64,000 nucleotides of DNA from Desulfovibrio ferrophilus (GTDB lineage Bacteria; Desulfobacterota; Desulfovibrionia; Desulfovibrionales; Desulfovibrionaceae): the NCBI RefSeq assembly GCF_003966735.1, contig NZ_AP017378.1, forward strand, positions 248,001 through 312,000, in the 5' to 3' direction. Both the position numbers and the translations under genes were made by a program. Below are positions 57,306 through 62,647 of the stretch, piece by piece. How positions within the stretch are numbered: position 1 is the stretch's first letter; each line of letters begins with the position of its first letter. The notes below the pieces were generated by a model. It did not search any database. It worked only from the letters and a program-made list of their open reading frames with translations, and was not told the DNA's origin.

Positions 57306-58658
57306 CTAGGCACTGGTTTCCAGGCGCGTAAGCACCCTGCGGGCGTAGGCCCATGAATAGACAGCGGCGGTAGAGTTGATGGCCACAATGCTCCACCAGA
57401 TGGCAGCCACACCGAAGTCCATGACTCCTGTCAGCATCCAGAAGAGCGTGACTGGGGCAATGAGCTGGCGCCAGAGTCCCATCCACAGGGCGAACATGGG
57501 ACGCTTGAGTCCCTGAAGCATGGCCACGCTGACGAAGAGCACCACATAGGCGTAGAGTAGAAATGCCATGATGCGCAGGAAATGGATGCCTTCGGCCTGA
57601 ACCTGCGGGTCGGCAGTGAAAGCCTGCATCAGCGGCGCTGCGGTAAGGAAGACGATAATTCCGCCGGGCAGCATCATCCATGCGCCGTAAATCAGAGCTT
57701 TTCGCAGGATTTCATGCACCCGTTCCAGTTTGTTTGCGCCAAGGTTCTGAGCCGTCAGGGTTAGGGTGGCGATGTTCAGCCCGATGGTGGGCATCAGGAC
57801 GATCTGTTCCACTCGGGTGGCGACACCATAGGCCGCTACCGTCGTCTGCCCGAACCGGGATACGAAATAGGTGATGATGAAAATGCCCAGGCCGATGGTG
57901 ACATAGTTGAATCCGGCGGGCAGGCTCTGGCGGGCGATGTCGGCGAATGGTCTGGCTTTGGGGAACCAGCCGCCGGAATCCGGCACCGAGTAAACCCCGG
58001 TGCGGTAAGCTTTGGTTCCAAGATAGAGCGCGCCTACGGCTTGGCAGAGGATGGTTGCTGCGGCAATGCCCGTGATTCCCATGGCGGGAAGTCCAAAACC
58101 GCCATAGATGAACCACGGATCGAGCCCGATGTTGGCGGCGGATGAGGCCATGAGCATGTTGCGAAAGCTTTTGGTGTCACCCTGAGCCTGGAGTACGGCG
58201 TTGAAAACATAGATCAGTATGGGGAAAATACTCAGCCCGAAGATGGGCAGCATGTATTGCAGGCAGGCTTCCAGATACTCATCTTGTGCCCCGAGAAGAC
58301 CGAACAGCGGTCGCGCACCGAACAGGCCGATCAATGTCAGTAGGATGGTGGTCAGCAGGCCGAAGATCAATCCCTGCCGAGCGTATTCACCGGCCTGTTG
58401 CCTATCCCCTGAGCCCAGAGCCGCTCCGATCAGGGCTGTGCTGCCCACCTGCAGCCCGCTGCCCACGGAGATAACCACGAAGAAGACCGGGAAGGCCAGC
58501 GATAGGGCTGCCTGTGCCGTTGTTCCGATGAGCCCCGCGTAATAGGTGTCCACCACGTTGAACATTGTGTGAAAGAAAAAACCGACGCTGGCGGGTATAG
58601 CGATTTTGCGGATGCATTCGGGGATGGCGCAGGAGGTGAGGCTGTTGTCGATATTCAC
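57306..58658 (-). CDS. MATE family efflux transporter
   Basis: The 450-residue inner-membrane protein has about 12 helices and the MATE halves: FFFHTMFNVVDTYYAGLIG, GSTALIGAALGSGDRQQAGEY, and in the second half VATRVEQIVLMPTIGLNIAT and TAQNLGANKLERV. MATE pumps export cationic drugs and metabolites with sodium or protons. It starts a minus-strand run with the Smr and TauE genes (56 bases to Smr). Confidence 0.93.
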   Translation of the reverse strand: MNIDNSLTSCAIPECIRKIAIPASVGFFFHTMFNVVDTYYAGLIGTTAQAALSLAFPVFFVVISVGSGLQVGSTALIGAALGSGDRQQAGEYARQGLIFGLLTTILLTLIGLFGARPLFGLLGAQDEYLEACLQYMLPIFGLSIFPILIYVFNAVLQAQGDTKSFRNMLMASSAANIGLDPWFIYGGFGLPAMGITGIAAATILCQAVGALYLGTKAYRTGVYSVPDSGGWFPKARPFADIARQSLPAGFNYVTIGLGIFIITYFVSRFGQTTVAAYGVATRVEQIVLMPTIGLNIATLTLTAQNLGANKLERVHEILRKALIYGAWMMLPGGIIVFLTAAPLMQAFTADPQVQAEGIHFLRIMAFLLYAYVVLFVSVAMLQGLKRPMFALWMGLWRQLIAPVTLFWMLTGVMDFGVAAIWWSIVAINSTAAVYSWAYARRVLTRLETSA

Positions 58659-59009: not shown

Positions 59010-60167
59010 ATGAAACGTTTGATTTGTGCCGCCGTTGCTGCCTTTGTCGTAGCCGCTGCCGTACTTGCCCCCGCAGCGGCCTGGGCCGCCAACGATCGCA
59101 AGGTTGTCTTTGCCTTTGATCGTAAGTTCATGCCGTTTTCCTATGTTCGGAATCAGGTCCCCACCGGGTTTGAGGTGGAACTATTTACGGCTGTACTCGA
59201 AGGCTCTGGCCTGGGCATCGAATACAAGCCTATGCGTGATTGGGAACGGGCTCAGGCGGAATTGTCCGGAGGGTTGATTCAGGTCGCGGCGGGCATGACC
59301 AAGACTCCGCTTCGGGAGAAGGTGTTCATCTTCCCCGAGACCCCCACCATGACTCTGGATCTCAAGTTCTTTGCCAATCAGACCTCCAATTATACCCACG
59401 TGGGCCAACTCAGGGGCCAGACCATCGCCGCCATTCGTGATTCACTCTATCAGCGCCTGCTTCAGGAATTTGGTGGCGTGAAGATCAAACTCTATGAGGA
59501 CGGCGAGCAAGCCCTGAAAGCGGTGCTGTCGGGCGATGCCGCTGCATATTTCGGTACCGACAAGATCGCCCGCGACATCATTGCTCGCAAGAACATGAAA
59601 AATCTGGTGGTTATCGGCTCCACGGTTCGTTCCGTGCCAGTCTACTATGCCCTCTACAAGGGGGAGACCGGGCTGCGCGATCTCATGGACAGGGGGCTCA
59701 AGCGACTGATGGTCAACGGTGAATATGACCGCATTTACCGCAAGTGGTTTGTGCCCGAGATGACCACCTCGGACATGGGCCGCCTGGTGGCCGAGGCCAA
59801 GAAGGTCCTGCCCATGGCTTATGCGCCGCACAGCGGGAAGCCCGAGGCCGCTGCCGTACTCACACGTTCGGGAGCTGTTTTCGTTGGAGCCAATATCGAG
59901 AATGCAGCCCCCGGTGCAGGAATAGGGGCTCTGGAAGTGGCTTTGACCAAGGCTGTTTCCGCCGGACAGCTCCAGATCTATGCGGCCGTGAAGATTTCGC
60001 GGACCGGGTTGGTCCTGCCGCCTTCGGCCGCTGAACGCCAGCTCCTGTGGGAGTACGGTCGGAGCGTGCTTGTTCTGCTGGAACCCAACCGTGGTGAATA
60101 CGAGGCCTGGTCACTGCCCAAACTGCTGCCGTTCCCGGACAGAATGCCCGGAATGCCTGGGTCCTGA
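59010..60167 (+). CDS. Exported solute-binding protein fused to a zinc-less cytidine deaminase domain
   Basis: The 385-residue protein has a cleavable signal (1-26, ending AAAWA), an SBP_bac_3 domain (about 30-255: FMPFSYVRNQVPTGFEVELF, AAYFGTDKIARDII, RIYRKWF) and a C-terminal segment (about 258-375) that follows bacterial cytidine deaminase almost without gaps: AYAPHS, AAVLTRSGAVFVGANIENAA, ALTKAVSAG. All three zinc cysteines are replaced (Bacillus Cys53, 86, 89 correspond to Gly306, Ser339, Glu342), and the catalytic Glu55 by Leu308. The ribose-contact pair N and E in NIENAA is kept (Asn295, Glu297). It therefore looks like a periplasmic, inactive, possibly nucleoside-binding module. No ABC permease is adjacent; glk follows after 61 bases. 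Confidence 0.85.
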   Translation: MKRLICAAVAAFVVAAAVLAPAAAWAANDRKVVFAFDRKFMPFSYVRNQVPTGFEVELFTAVLEGSGLGIEYKPMRDWERAQAELSGGLIQVAAGMTKTPLREKVFIFPETPTMTLDLKFFANQTSNYTHVGQLRGQTIAAIRDSLYQRLLQEFGGVKIKLYEDGEQALKAVLSGDAAAYFGTDKIARDIIARKNMKNLVVIGSTVRSVPVYYALYKGETGLRDLMDRGLKRLMVNGEYDRIYRKWFVPEMTTSDMGRLVAEAKKVLPMAYAPHSGKPEAAAVLTRSGAVFVGANIENAAPGAGIGALEVALTKAVSAGQLQIYAAVKISRTGLVLPPSAAERQLLWEYGRSVLVLLEPNRGEYEAWSLPKLLPFPDRMPGMPGS

Positions 60168-60228: not shown

Positions 60229-61182
60229 ATGACGAAGATTCTTGCTGCTGATATTGGTGGCACCAATAGTCGTTTTGCCGTGTTTGAGGGGCGGGAAGGA
60301 TCTCTCGAAATGGAAACCTCGGTCTGGTTTTCCACCACCGATGCTGCCGACTTCGGGCACCTGTTGATTCTTCTGGAAGACAGTGATTTTCCCTTGCGGC
60401 CCTGCGATGCCGATTATGTGGCCCTGGCAGTGGCTGGCCCGGTGCTCGGGGGCAACTCTTGCAATCCTCCCAATATCGCGTGGGAAGTGGACCTCTCGGA
60501 AGCTCGGGAGAAGTACGGCTTTTCGCGTTACATTCTGATCAATGATTTTGCGGCCCAGGCCTTTGCCGTGCGCACAGCGGTGATGGGCAAGGCTCTGGAT
60601 ATTCTGCCAGGACAACCTGACGAACAGAGCGTTGTGGGAGTGATCGGTGCTGGCACGGGACTTGGCAAAGCAGCCCTTGTACCGGATGGACGGGGCCGCT
60701 GGCTGGCTCTGTCCACCGAAGGCGGTCATAGCTTGTTCCCTTTCTCTGGTCGTAGGGAGTTCGATTTTCAGCGTTTCATGATGGAACGTTGTGACCGCCA
60801 GCAGATTATTGGGGATTTGGTCCTGTCCGGGGGCGGCTTGTCCTCGATTCATGCCTTCCATACTGGTGATGAGCTTGCCCCCGCTGAGGTTGTGGCTGCA
60901 TTTGATCGTCATCCCGAAGTTCTGGAGTGGGCGGCCCGGTTCTATGGCAGGGCCTGCCGCCATCTGGCCCTTGATTTGATGGCCACGGGCGGGATTGTCG
61001 TCAGCGGAGGAGTTGCCGCCAAGGCCACGGAGCTAGTTGAACATGATTCCTTTGGGGCCGAATTCAGAAATTCGGAAACCCATCGGGATTTGTTGGCCGG
61101 GATTCCGGTGCGTCTGAACAGGTGCGAGGATTCCGGTCTGTGGGGGGCGGCTTTTTCGGCTTGGCAGCAATGCGTTGCTTAA
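60229..61182 (+). CDS. glk: Glucokinase
   Basis: The 317-residue kinase phosphorylates glucose with ATP. It has the N-terminal phosphate loop ILAADIGGTNSRFAVFE, the glucose site ILINDFAAQAFAV, VIGAGTGLGKAALVPD and STEGGHSLFPF, followed by GIVVSGGVAAK. It belongs to the bacterial Glk rather than the ROK group, which has CXCGXXGC zinc motifs. AAGGAGGGG precedes the ATG at 60229. Confidence 0.92.
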   Translation: MTKILAADIGGTNSRFAVFEGREGSLEMETSVWFSTTDAADFGHLLILLEDSDFPLRPCDADYVALAVAGPVLGGNSCNPPNIAWEVDLSEAREKYGFSRYILINDFAAQAFAVRTAVMGKALDILPGQPDEQSVVGVIGAGTGLGKAALVPDGRGRWLALSTEGGHSLFPFSGRREFDFQRFMMERCDRQQIIGDLVLSGGGLSSIHAFHTGDELAPAEVVAAFDRHPEVLEWAARFYGRACRHLALDLMATGGIVVSGGVAAKATELVEHDSFGAEFRNSETHRDLLAGIPVRLNRCEDSGLWGAAFSAWQQCVA

Positions 61183-61345
61183 AGGCAATGTCGTTGATCT
61201 GCGAATTGCGCAGAGCCTTACCAGGGCTGAGTTGCTGAACGATTACAATTCTTGATCTGTTGACTTTCTTCTTGCCTGTATCTTATATATAATGCCTCAT
61301 TGTGCATGTATTTTAGTCATTTTATCGATACAGGGGGGGAGTGTT

Positions 61346-62647
61346 TTGAAGAAAATTTGTTTTGCCATAGCAATCTGCGTTGCAATGTCCGTGGCTACCG
61401 TAGGGACGGTTCAGGCCAAGACCCTAGGCGAATTGCTGCCGGAAATGCTGACTCAGCATGAGCGCCTCAAAGCGGCGCAGGACACTGAGGAAGCCGGTCT
61501 GGAGCGCTACAAGGCCTCGAAAACGGCTTGGTATCCCAAACTCAATTTCAGTGGTGACGTAGCCCGTGAAGTGACGGACTACAATAACGCCGCCTCCGTT
61601 TCCCTGACCCGCAATATCGTGAAGTTCCGTGGTACCCAGAACATCTGGGACGCGGGCTTGGTCGATGGTGGGATCAAAGGCAACGAAGGTATGTACAAGC
61701 AGGCCGAACAGACTAAGACCTTTACCCGCCAGGGACTGCTTCTTGAGGGAGCCAACGCTTATCTACAGCTGATGAAGGCTGTGCGTACCCTTGAATACGC
61801 CCTTCAGTCCGAAGAAAATATCATGCGCCAGACAGGTATCGAGGAATCCCTCGTGGAGAAGGGCGCCGGCCTGTCTTCCGATGTCCTTCAGGCCAAGGCC
61901 CAGCTGGCCGAGGTCGCAGCGTTGCGTGTTGTCAACGAGGGGCAACTGGAAAATGCCCGCAGCCGATTCAAGGCCGTGTTTGGTTTCAGCCCGGACGATG
62001 CCCTGATCACTTCGTTTAGCTATCCCAACGCTCCTTATGCTCAGGTTCCCGGAACCGTGGACGAGGCGATCAATGTCTCCTTCCAGAAGAATCCGAGCAT
62101 CCTCATTTCCCAGAGCATGGTCGAAACCGCCGATGGTTCCGTCGAGACCGCATTGGCGAGCTTCTACCCGCACTTCAATGCCTTCGCCGAATACTGGCGC
62201 AAGGAGAACGATGGTGGGCAGAAGGACACCGTCAAGTGGGAGCAGCGTTTGGGTGTCGAGTTTAATTACAATTTCTATAATGGCGGCGGCGACACGGCCA
62301 CCTTGGCGGCTTCGCGCAAGGACCGTTCTGCTGCGGTGAACACCGTACTGGATGTTGAGCGGACCATCGAAGAGCAGGTGCGCGTTGCCTGGCAGAATCT
62401 AATCACTGCCCGCTCCAAGGCTGAATGGTTCAGAAACCAGGCCGTGATCTCCGAGGAATTCCTGGAGTTGGCACGCAAGGAGCGCAAGCTTGGCAATCGC
62501 TCTCTGCTGGATGTTCTTTCTGCGGAAGTGAATCTGAATTCTGCCCGCAGTGGTGCCATTACTGCCGAAGTGGATCAGATGATCCAGGCGTACACGCTGA
62601 TGCACGCCATGGGGCAGCTCGAACTCGACTTGTTCCCGGCTCAGTAG
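61346..62647 (+). CDS. TolC-family outer-membrane channel
   Basis: The 433-residue protein starts at a TTG (61346) with a GGGGGG ribosome-binding site and has a signal peptide ending TVQA. The body shows the two-fold TolC repeats with helical pairs (ANAYLQLMKAVRTLEYAL; RVAWQNLITARSKAEWFR), GLSSDVLQAKAQLAEVAAL and LGNRSLLDVLSAEVNLNSA. With the type I ABC exporter gene directly downstream it is the outer-membrane part of a type I secretion system. A terminator lies between. Confidence 0.92.
   Translation: MKKICFAIAICVAMSVATVGTVQAKTLGELLPEMLTQHERLKAAQDTEEAGLERYKASKTAWYPKLNFSGDVAREVTDYNNAASVSLTRNIVKFRGTQNIWDAGLVDGGIKGNEGMYKQAEQTKTFTRQGLLLEGANAYLQLMKAVRTLEYALQSEENIMRQTGIEESLVEKGAGLSSDVLQAKAQLAEVAALRVVNEGQLENARSRFKAVFGFSPDDALITSFSYPNAPYAQVPGTVDEAINVSFQKNPSILISQSMVETADGSVETALASFYPHFNAFAEYWRKENDGGQKDTVKWEQRLGVEFNYNFYNGGGDTATLAASRKDRSAAVNTVLDVERTIEEQVRVAWQNLITARSKAEWFRNQAVISEEFLELARKERKLGNRSLLDVLSAEVNLNSARSGAITAEVDQMIQAYTLMHAMGQLELDLFPAQ

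Follow-up and report, generated by a model that had tools for sequence, protein, structure and literature searches.

The window, a stretch of 64,000 nucleotides of Desulfovibrio ferrophilus DNA (contig NZ_AP017378.1), contains at 59010..60167 (+) an uninterrupted reading frame for a protein of 385 amino acids, in which a putative signal peptide and a solute-binding domain of the SBP_bac_3 type precede a domain homologous to cytidine deaminase (CDA) that carries neither the three zinc ligands nor the catalytic glutamate. We tentatively consider this fusion to be a free-standing periplasmic binding protein that has two putative ligand pockets and is catalytically dead.

Domain architecture of the fusion protein

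The assignment of the entire ORF as an SBP_bac_3/pseudo-cytidine-deaminase fusion is based on Pfam, TIGR01354 and a family alignment. Judged by eye, its N-terminus displays KR, a hydrophobic core and AWA/AN as is typical for a Sec signal, and the putative signal peptide comprises residues 1-26 (59010..59087, +). Hydrophobic N-termini are also found in those aligned fusion members in which the start could be placed, and from the N-terminus of the query we infer that the protein is exported by the Sec pathway. The SBP_bac_3 domain covers residues 31-247 (59100..59750, +) and is recognized by Pfam (PF00497, matched over residues 33-247; E 5.8e-22, 78.3 bits as compared to a cut-off of 26.4) as well as by its similarity to solved structures. 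After a linker of about 8 residues, the pseudo-cytidine-deaminase domain follows with residues 256-376 (59775..60137, +), as judged from Pfam, TIGR01354, the structure 1ux1 and the predicted fold. In Pfam, dCMP_cyt_deam_2 (PF08211) matches residues 256-320 with an E-value of 4.5e-8, exceeding the Pfam cut-off, and both SBP_bac_3 and PF08211 were matched in 14/14 fusion members scanned. A first-pass annotation of this DNA had already placed a signal peptide and an SBP_bac_3 domain ahead of a deaminase fold, and Pfam confirms the solute-binding domain in this order, with a signal peptide that looks typical by eye. The labels 'cytidine deaminase' or 'amino-acid ABC transporter binding protein' could easily be assigned to such a protein in an automatic way, and the evidence presented here argues against both of them.

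The C-terminal domain is homologous to tetrameric cytidine deaminases

When used alone, the last 139 residues match TIGR01354, the profile for tetrameric CDA, with an E-value of 3.8e-17 over nearly the full profile length, and the score of 62.7 bits remains under the curated equivalog cut-off of 113.65. Residues 12-128 of this piece align with the CDA structure 1ux1 from B. subtilis (E 3.1e-13) nearly without gaps, just as the first-pass annotation had described the C-terminal part in relation to bacterial CDA. Modelling of the C-terminal domain alone with 11 sequences (the query and 10 relatives) led to a predicted CDA fold with a pLDDT of 83.6 and a pTM of 0.80. In a Foldseek search with this model, CDAs were the top hits (E 6e-12 for the best one, the CDA of B. 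subtilis, with 36% identity), and VIA-align superposed the model on CDA structures with Z of about 19-21 and an rmsd of 1.9-2.7 over 123-135 residues, so the structure prediction and superposition proposed earlier as a check returned a deaminase fold, at the level of a model. Since nine of the alignment rows of this model are ordinary-type CDAs, it indicates compatibility with the CDA fold more than it provides independent evidence, and the homology is carried by the sequence E-values and not by the model. A full-length AlphaFold prediction performed without an alignment had a mean pLDDT of 39, which is too low to place the domains relative to each other.

Zinc ligands and catalytic glutamate are replaced in a patterned way

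Residues were counted in an alignment of 38 pseudo-deaminase domains with 14 CDAs and are numbered according to B. subtilis CDA. In the query, Gly306-Ala-Leu308 (59925..59933, +) is found at the place of Cys53-Ala-Glu55 of active CDAs, which contains one zinc ligand and the catalytic Glu, and Ser339-Ala-Ala-Glu342 (60024..60035, +) at the place of Cys86-Gly-Ala-Cys89, which contains the other two zinc ligands. Accordingly, C53 corresponds to G306, E55 to L308, C86 to S339 and C89 to E342, and the first-pass annotation, which had reported these four replacements, was exact in its assignments. The same alignment equates the ribose-contacting residues N42 and E44 with N295 and E297 of the segment Asn295-Ile-Glu297 (59892..59900, +).

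Clearly, these replacements are not a peculiarity of the query, as each of the three zinc cysteines (C53, C86, C89) and the catalytic E55 is kept in 0/38 fusion domains. At position 53, serine (24), threonine (9), glycine (4) or glutamine (1) is encountered, and position 55 is nearly always hydrophobic (Leu in 21 and Ile in 9 domains). Position 86 is frequently occupied by Ser (13), Thr (13) or Ala (7), and position 89 by Asp (23), Glu (13) or Val (2). The four residues are therefore replaced following a pattern of Ser/Thr, hydrophobic, Ser/Thr/Ala and Asp/Glu. A comparison with relatives had been suggested at the outset, and all 38/38 compared domains lack the four residues in this patterned way. 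Relatives with intact cysteines, which would have marked the query as a simply mutated copy, did not appear; no fusion domain with an intact zinc centre was encountered among the 38 read from searches of 288 family genomes together with 297 drawn from the class and 395 drawn from the phylum.

With C53 changed to Ser/Thr in 33/38, C86 to Ser/Thr in 26/38 and C89 to Asp/Glu in 36/38 domains, the substitutions look convergent rather than random, and the zinc site might have been rebuilt as another functional centre (Ser/Thr, Ser/Thr, Asp/Glu) that employs a different metal or acid-base chemistry. Such a centre is possible, with the substitution pattern as its one argument, but we consider it very improbable, as hydrogen bonds that fill an empty zinc site would yield the same pattern, Ser and Thr bind metals weakly and, with hydrophobic residues in place of E55, an obvious general base is missing from the catalytic position.

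The retained pocket residues and a possible scaffold function

The Asn-Glu pair that was initially described as kept is indeed present in the query. In the whole family only its glutamate is well conserved: E44 is kept in 36/37 fusion domains (absent in members L065 and L066), whereas Asn42 is kept in just 23/38 and replaced by Ser or Thr in 11 others. Further residues found in the majority of the fusion domains are A54 (36/38), P20 (37/38), Y18 (36/38) and Q91 (28/38), and general fold residues (A10, A58, G35, E95, L-L-P) are retained as well. Phe24 contacts the base in CDA, and varied residues occur at this position in the fusion domains. Because Phe24 is variable and Asn42 is kept in only part of the domains, a nucleoside pocket is not assured.

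These residues bear directly on the main rival to our interpretation, namely a scaffold function of the pseudo-deaminase domain in oligomerisation, whereby the CDA fold and its tetramer surface would multimerise the SBP domains and the pocket would be vestigial. The relatives in the TIGR01354 family ('cyt_deam_tetra') are homotetrameric CDAs, and the conservation of general fold residues together with the failure to retain the base-contacting F24 would be expected for a scaffold. However, the near-pocket residues Y18, P20, E44 and A54 are among the best-conserved positions, and the zinc positions were replaced in a pattern and did not drift freely. We therefore consider a scaffold somewhat unlikely, although the conserved pocket residues could be structural.

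Distribution, phylogeny and selection

A search profile built from 14 fusion members detected the fusion in 47/288 genomes of the window's family, distributed over 16/44 genera and with one copy per genome. This profile search listed 51 genomes, and four of them (G059, G060, G244, G283), which match only in the SBP part, were not counted. Reading frames of the fusion are intact across the family genomes, and in genome G014 the fusion is split over two contigs. Outside the family, no fusion was listed among 297 genomes drawn from the class, and one further carrier (G350), located outside the class, was encountered among 395 genomes drawn from the phylum. No fusion was found in viral contigs, and the matches listed for plasmids (ten) were of the ordinary CDA type. 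Among named records, a 'Proteobacteria bacterium' MAG (L001) comes closest.

In a likelihood tree, a branch with 100/99 support sets all fusions apart from all CDAs. As all fusions are located on one side of this branch, a single origin is the simplest explanation, and the loss of the catalytic centre probably predates their diversification. Pairwise dN/dS values in the pseudo-deaminase domain range from 0.01 to 0.11, similar to those of the SBP domain; with synonymous sites near or at saturation the exact values are rough and the direction is clear. The pseudo-deaminase domain is thus maintained by purifying selection. The absence of the four catalytic positions might be ascribed to mutation or decay of a deaminase gene, or the resemblance to chance, but the loss is common to 38 divergent homologues that all fall to the same side of a single branch, frames are intact, dN/dS is <=0.11 and the TIGR01354 match has an E-value of 3.8e-17, which rules out this explanation for practical purposes and leaves it a negligible probability.

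When the 288 family genomes were searched with TIGR01354, genomes with the fusion gave at most one match, which was the fusion itself (in G077 too weak to be listed). An ordinary CDA was detected in about 37 family genomes that lack the fusion, and in no genome do the fusion and a separate CDA co-occur. Because most of these 37 genomes belong to one genus, this mutual exclusion does not weigh heavily, in statistical terms, in favour of a functional link. Two close SBP relatives that were read, L103 and L104, consist of the SBP part without a further domain, and an ordinary CDA is encoded elsewhere in the genomes of both.

The solute-binding domain lacks the alpha-amino-binding aspartate

The closest solved relatives of the SBP domain are 6h30, ArtJ, AncQR and AncCDT-1. 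In solute-binding proteins of the GlnBP/HisJ family, Arg, Thr and Ser hold the carboxylate of the ligand and an Asp holds its alpha-amino group. Arg102 (59313..59315, +), the equivalent of the carboxylate-binding arginine of amino-acid SBPs, is kept in 35/36 fusions, and upon alignment to AncQR Thr99 is kept in 34/36 and position 145 is Ser/Thr in 36/36. At the position of the alpha-amino-binding Asp, the query presents Thr183 (59556..59558, +), and comparison with AncQR reveals Pro in 23, Ala in 9 and Asp in 0/37 members. As the Arg/Thr/Ser set is kept and the Asp is never present, the ligand of the SBP domain is probably a carboxylate other than an ordinary alpha-amino acid, as far as sequence allows us to tell.

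Cyclohexadienyl dehydratases carry an acidic residue where amino-acid SBPs have the amino-binding Asp. Given that Pro or Ala occupies this position in the fusions, catalysis of the cyclohexadienyl dehydratase type was not retained as an explanation for the SBP domain.

The fusion gene looks solitary

Directly downstream of the fusion gene, after a gap of 61 bp, the window encodes a glucokinase (60229..61182, +; Pfam Glucokinase, E 1.5e-62), which is also found directly downstream of the fusion gene in several other genera. Upstream, a divergent gene for a MATE transporter (57306..58658, -; Pfam MatE) is present, a neighbour common to only three other fusion loci. A CinA-type protein (PF02464) is encoded divergently to the fusion in about nine of twenty loci. 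Since neither is universal, glucokinase and CinA were not taken as partners. Other neighbours were Smr and OEP proteins (by Pfam) and homologues of miaA, fliP, pdxJ, dnaN, hisC and cmk (by eye). In the window itself, Pfam revealed neither an ABC permease nor an ABC ATPase gene beside the fusion gene; among the annotated neighbours in other genera, for which ORF calls were rough and annotation was partial, none was recognized either. Scans for promoters and terminators gave results at chance level. The fusion gene therefore looks solitary, and as gene order is partly shared between loci, it would be mainly vertically inherited.

SBP_bac_3 domains commonly serve permeases or sensor inputs, and the fusion might be the periplasmic subunit or input of an unlinked ABC permease, sensor kinase or chemoreceptor. 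Related SBP domains occur within the same family in proteins that by eye resemble sensor kinases (L105, L106), and the window genome gave 18 matches to the query, where those listed besides the fusion cover the SBP part only. However, no adjoining gene is conserved and neighbours vary by genus, and we judge such an unlinked partner improbable.

Some additional observations were made at these loci. In the window, positions 60229-62647 encode the glucokinase and then a TolC-like outer-membrane protein, an arrangement shared by several genera (L049, L064, L065). A conserved gene for a protein of about 165-220 amino acids is found upstream of the fusion (L050, L053, L054, L056, L063), in several loci beside a CinA/hisC/cmk block; its product ends in a C-terminal motif like E.M..TE.FK.NRGDY and had no Pfam match in the one copy scanned. 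Another conserved protein of about 260-300 amino acids is encoded immediately upstream of the fusion and on the same strand in L052, L054, L056 and L057, and is a possible partner there. In L055, a second exported SBP_bac_3-like protein (263 amino acids, by eye) is encoded 1.6-2.4 kb downstream on the opposite strand.

Proposed role and comparison with known systems

In the two-pocket binding protein that we tentatively propose, an ancestral CDA-fold domain would have lost its zinc centre and catalytic Glu, most simply once, and has since been maintained by purifying selection. Sec would export the protein to the periplasm, where the SBP lobes would close on a carboxylate other than an ordinary alpha-amino acid and the deaminase-fold domain, without zinc or deamination, would keep the ribose end of the pocket and bind a nucleoside-like or ribosyl compound. 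The fusion might thus work as a two-input receptor or buffer, and would be neither an enzyme nor a subunit dedicated to an ABC transporter. A two-site sensor or scavenger for nucleosides plus a second ligand, as suggested in the first-pass annotation, might be inferred from sequence and fits because the ribose Glu is kept in 36/37 domains and no linked transporter was recognized; the loss of Phe24 and the limited retention of Asn42 speak against a simple retention of cytidine binding. More doubtful is the broader proposal of a new class of periplasmic receptor, in which a dead deaminase, possibly with a rebuilt Ser/Thr-Ser/Thr-Asp/Glu site, would sense ribosyl compounds or nucleosides and the SBP domain would sense a non-amino-acid carboxylate.

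With tetrameric CDAs (TIGR01354; B. subtilis 1jtk/1ux1), the C-terminal domain shares full-length homology, the predicted fold, the ribose-contacting Glu, A54 and the Y-x-P loop. In contrast to them, it lacks zinc ligands and catalytic Glu, is putatively exported and is located behind an SBP domain. Amino-acid SBPs (GlnBP, ArtJ, AncQR) resemble the N-terminal part in fold, profile, carboxylate-binding Thr/Arg/Ser and a terminal Y-x-x-x-x-x-K-W-F motif, whereas the fusions miss the alpha-amino Asp in all cases, possess an extra C-terminal domain and have no ABC transporter genes recognized alongside. Cyclohexadienyl dehydratase, MltF and BvgS-type sensors also employ an SBP_bac_3 domain outside of transport or in a fusion, but in these cases either the enzyme is the SBP domain as such, or the SBP domain is joined to a transglycosylase or kinase. 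Precedents exist for dead enzymes that have taken on binding or regulatory roles, and deaminase-fold domains, to our knowledge, normally act as enzymes in the cytoplasm or as secreted toxins. Both folds are known, and we could not find their combination or the fate of the active site described; a literature search, for which subscription papers were mostly outside reach, yielded no description of an SBP-deaminase fusion or of a periplasmic pseudo-CDA. A conserved, exported, zinc-free CDA joined to a solute-binding protein would represent a distinct route to a periplasmic receptor.

Other deaminases

Two genomes of one genus within the window's family (G156, G096) encode proteins (L108, L109) in which a GrpB-like domain, recognized by eye, is followed by a CDA-like domain whose CAE and PCGAC motifs are intact. 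A CDA gene of G260 that stands alone (L110) seems to be damaged, as CAE is present and the second zinc motif is unrecognizable in the open frame. A CDA encoded on a viral contig (L097; IMGVR_UViG_3300028610_000244) has the first zinc Cys replaced by His (motif HAEL). The dCMP deaminases also have a histidine here, as reportedly does a B. subtilis CDA that was engineered.
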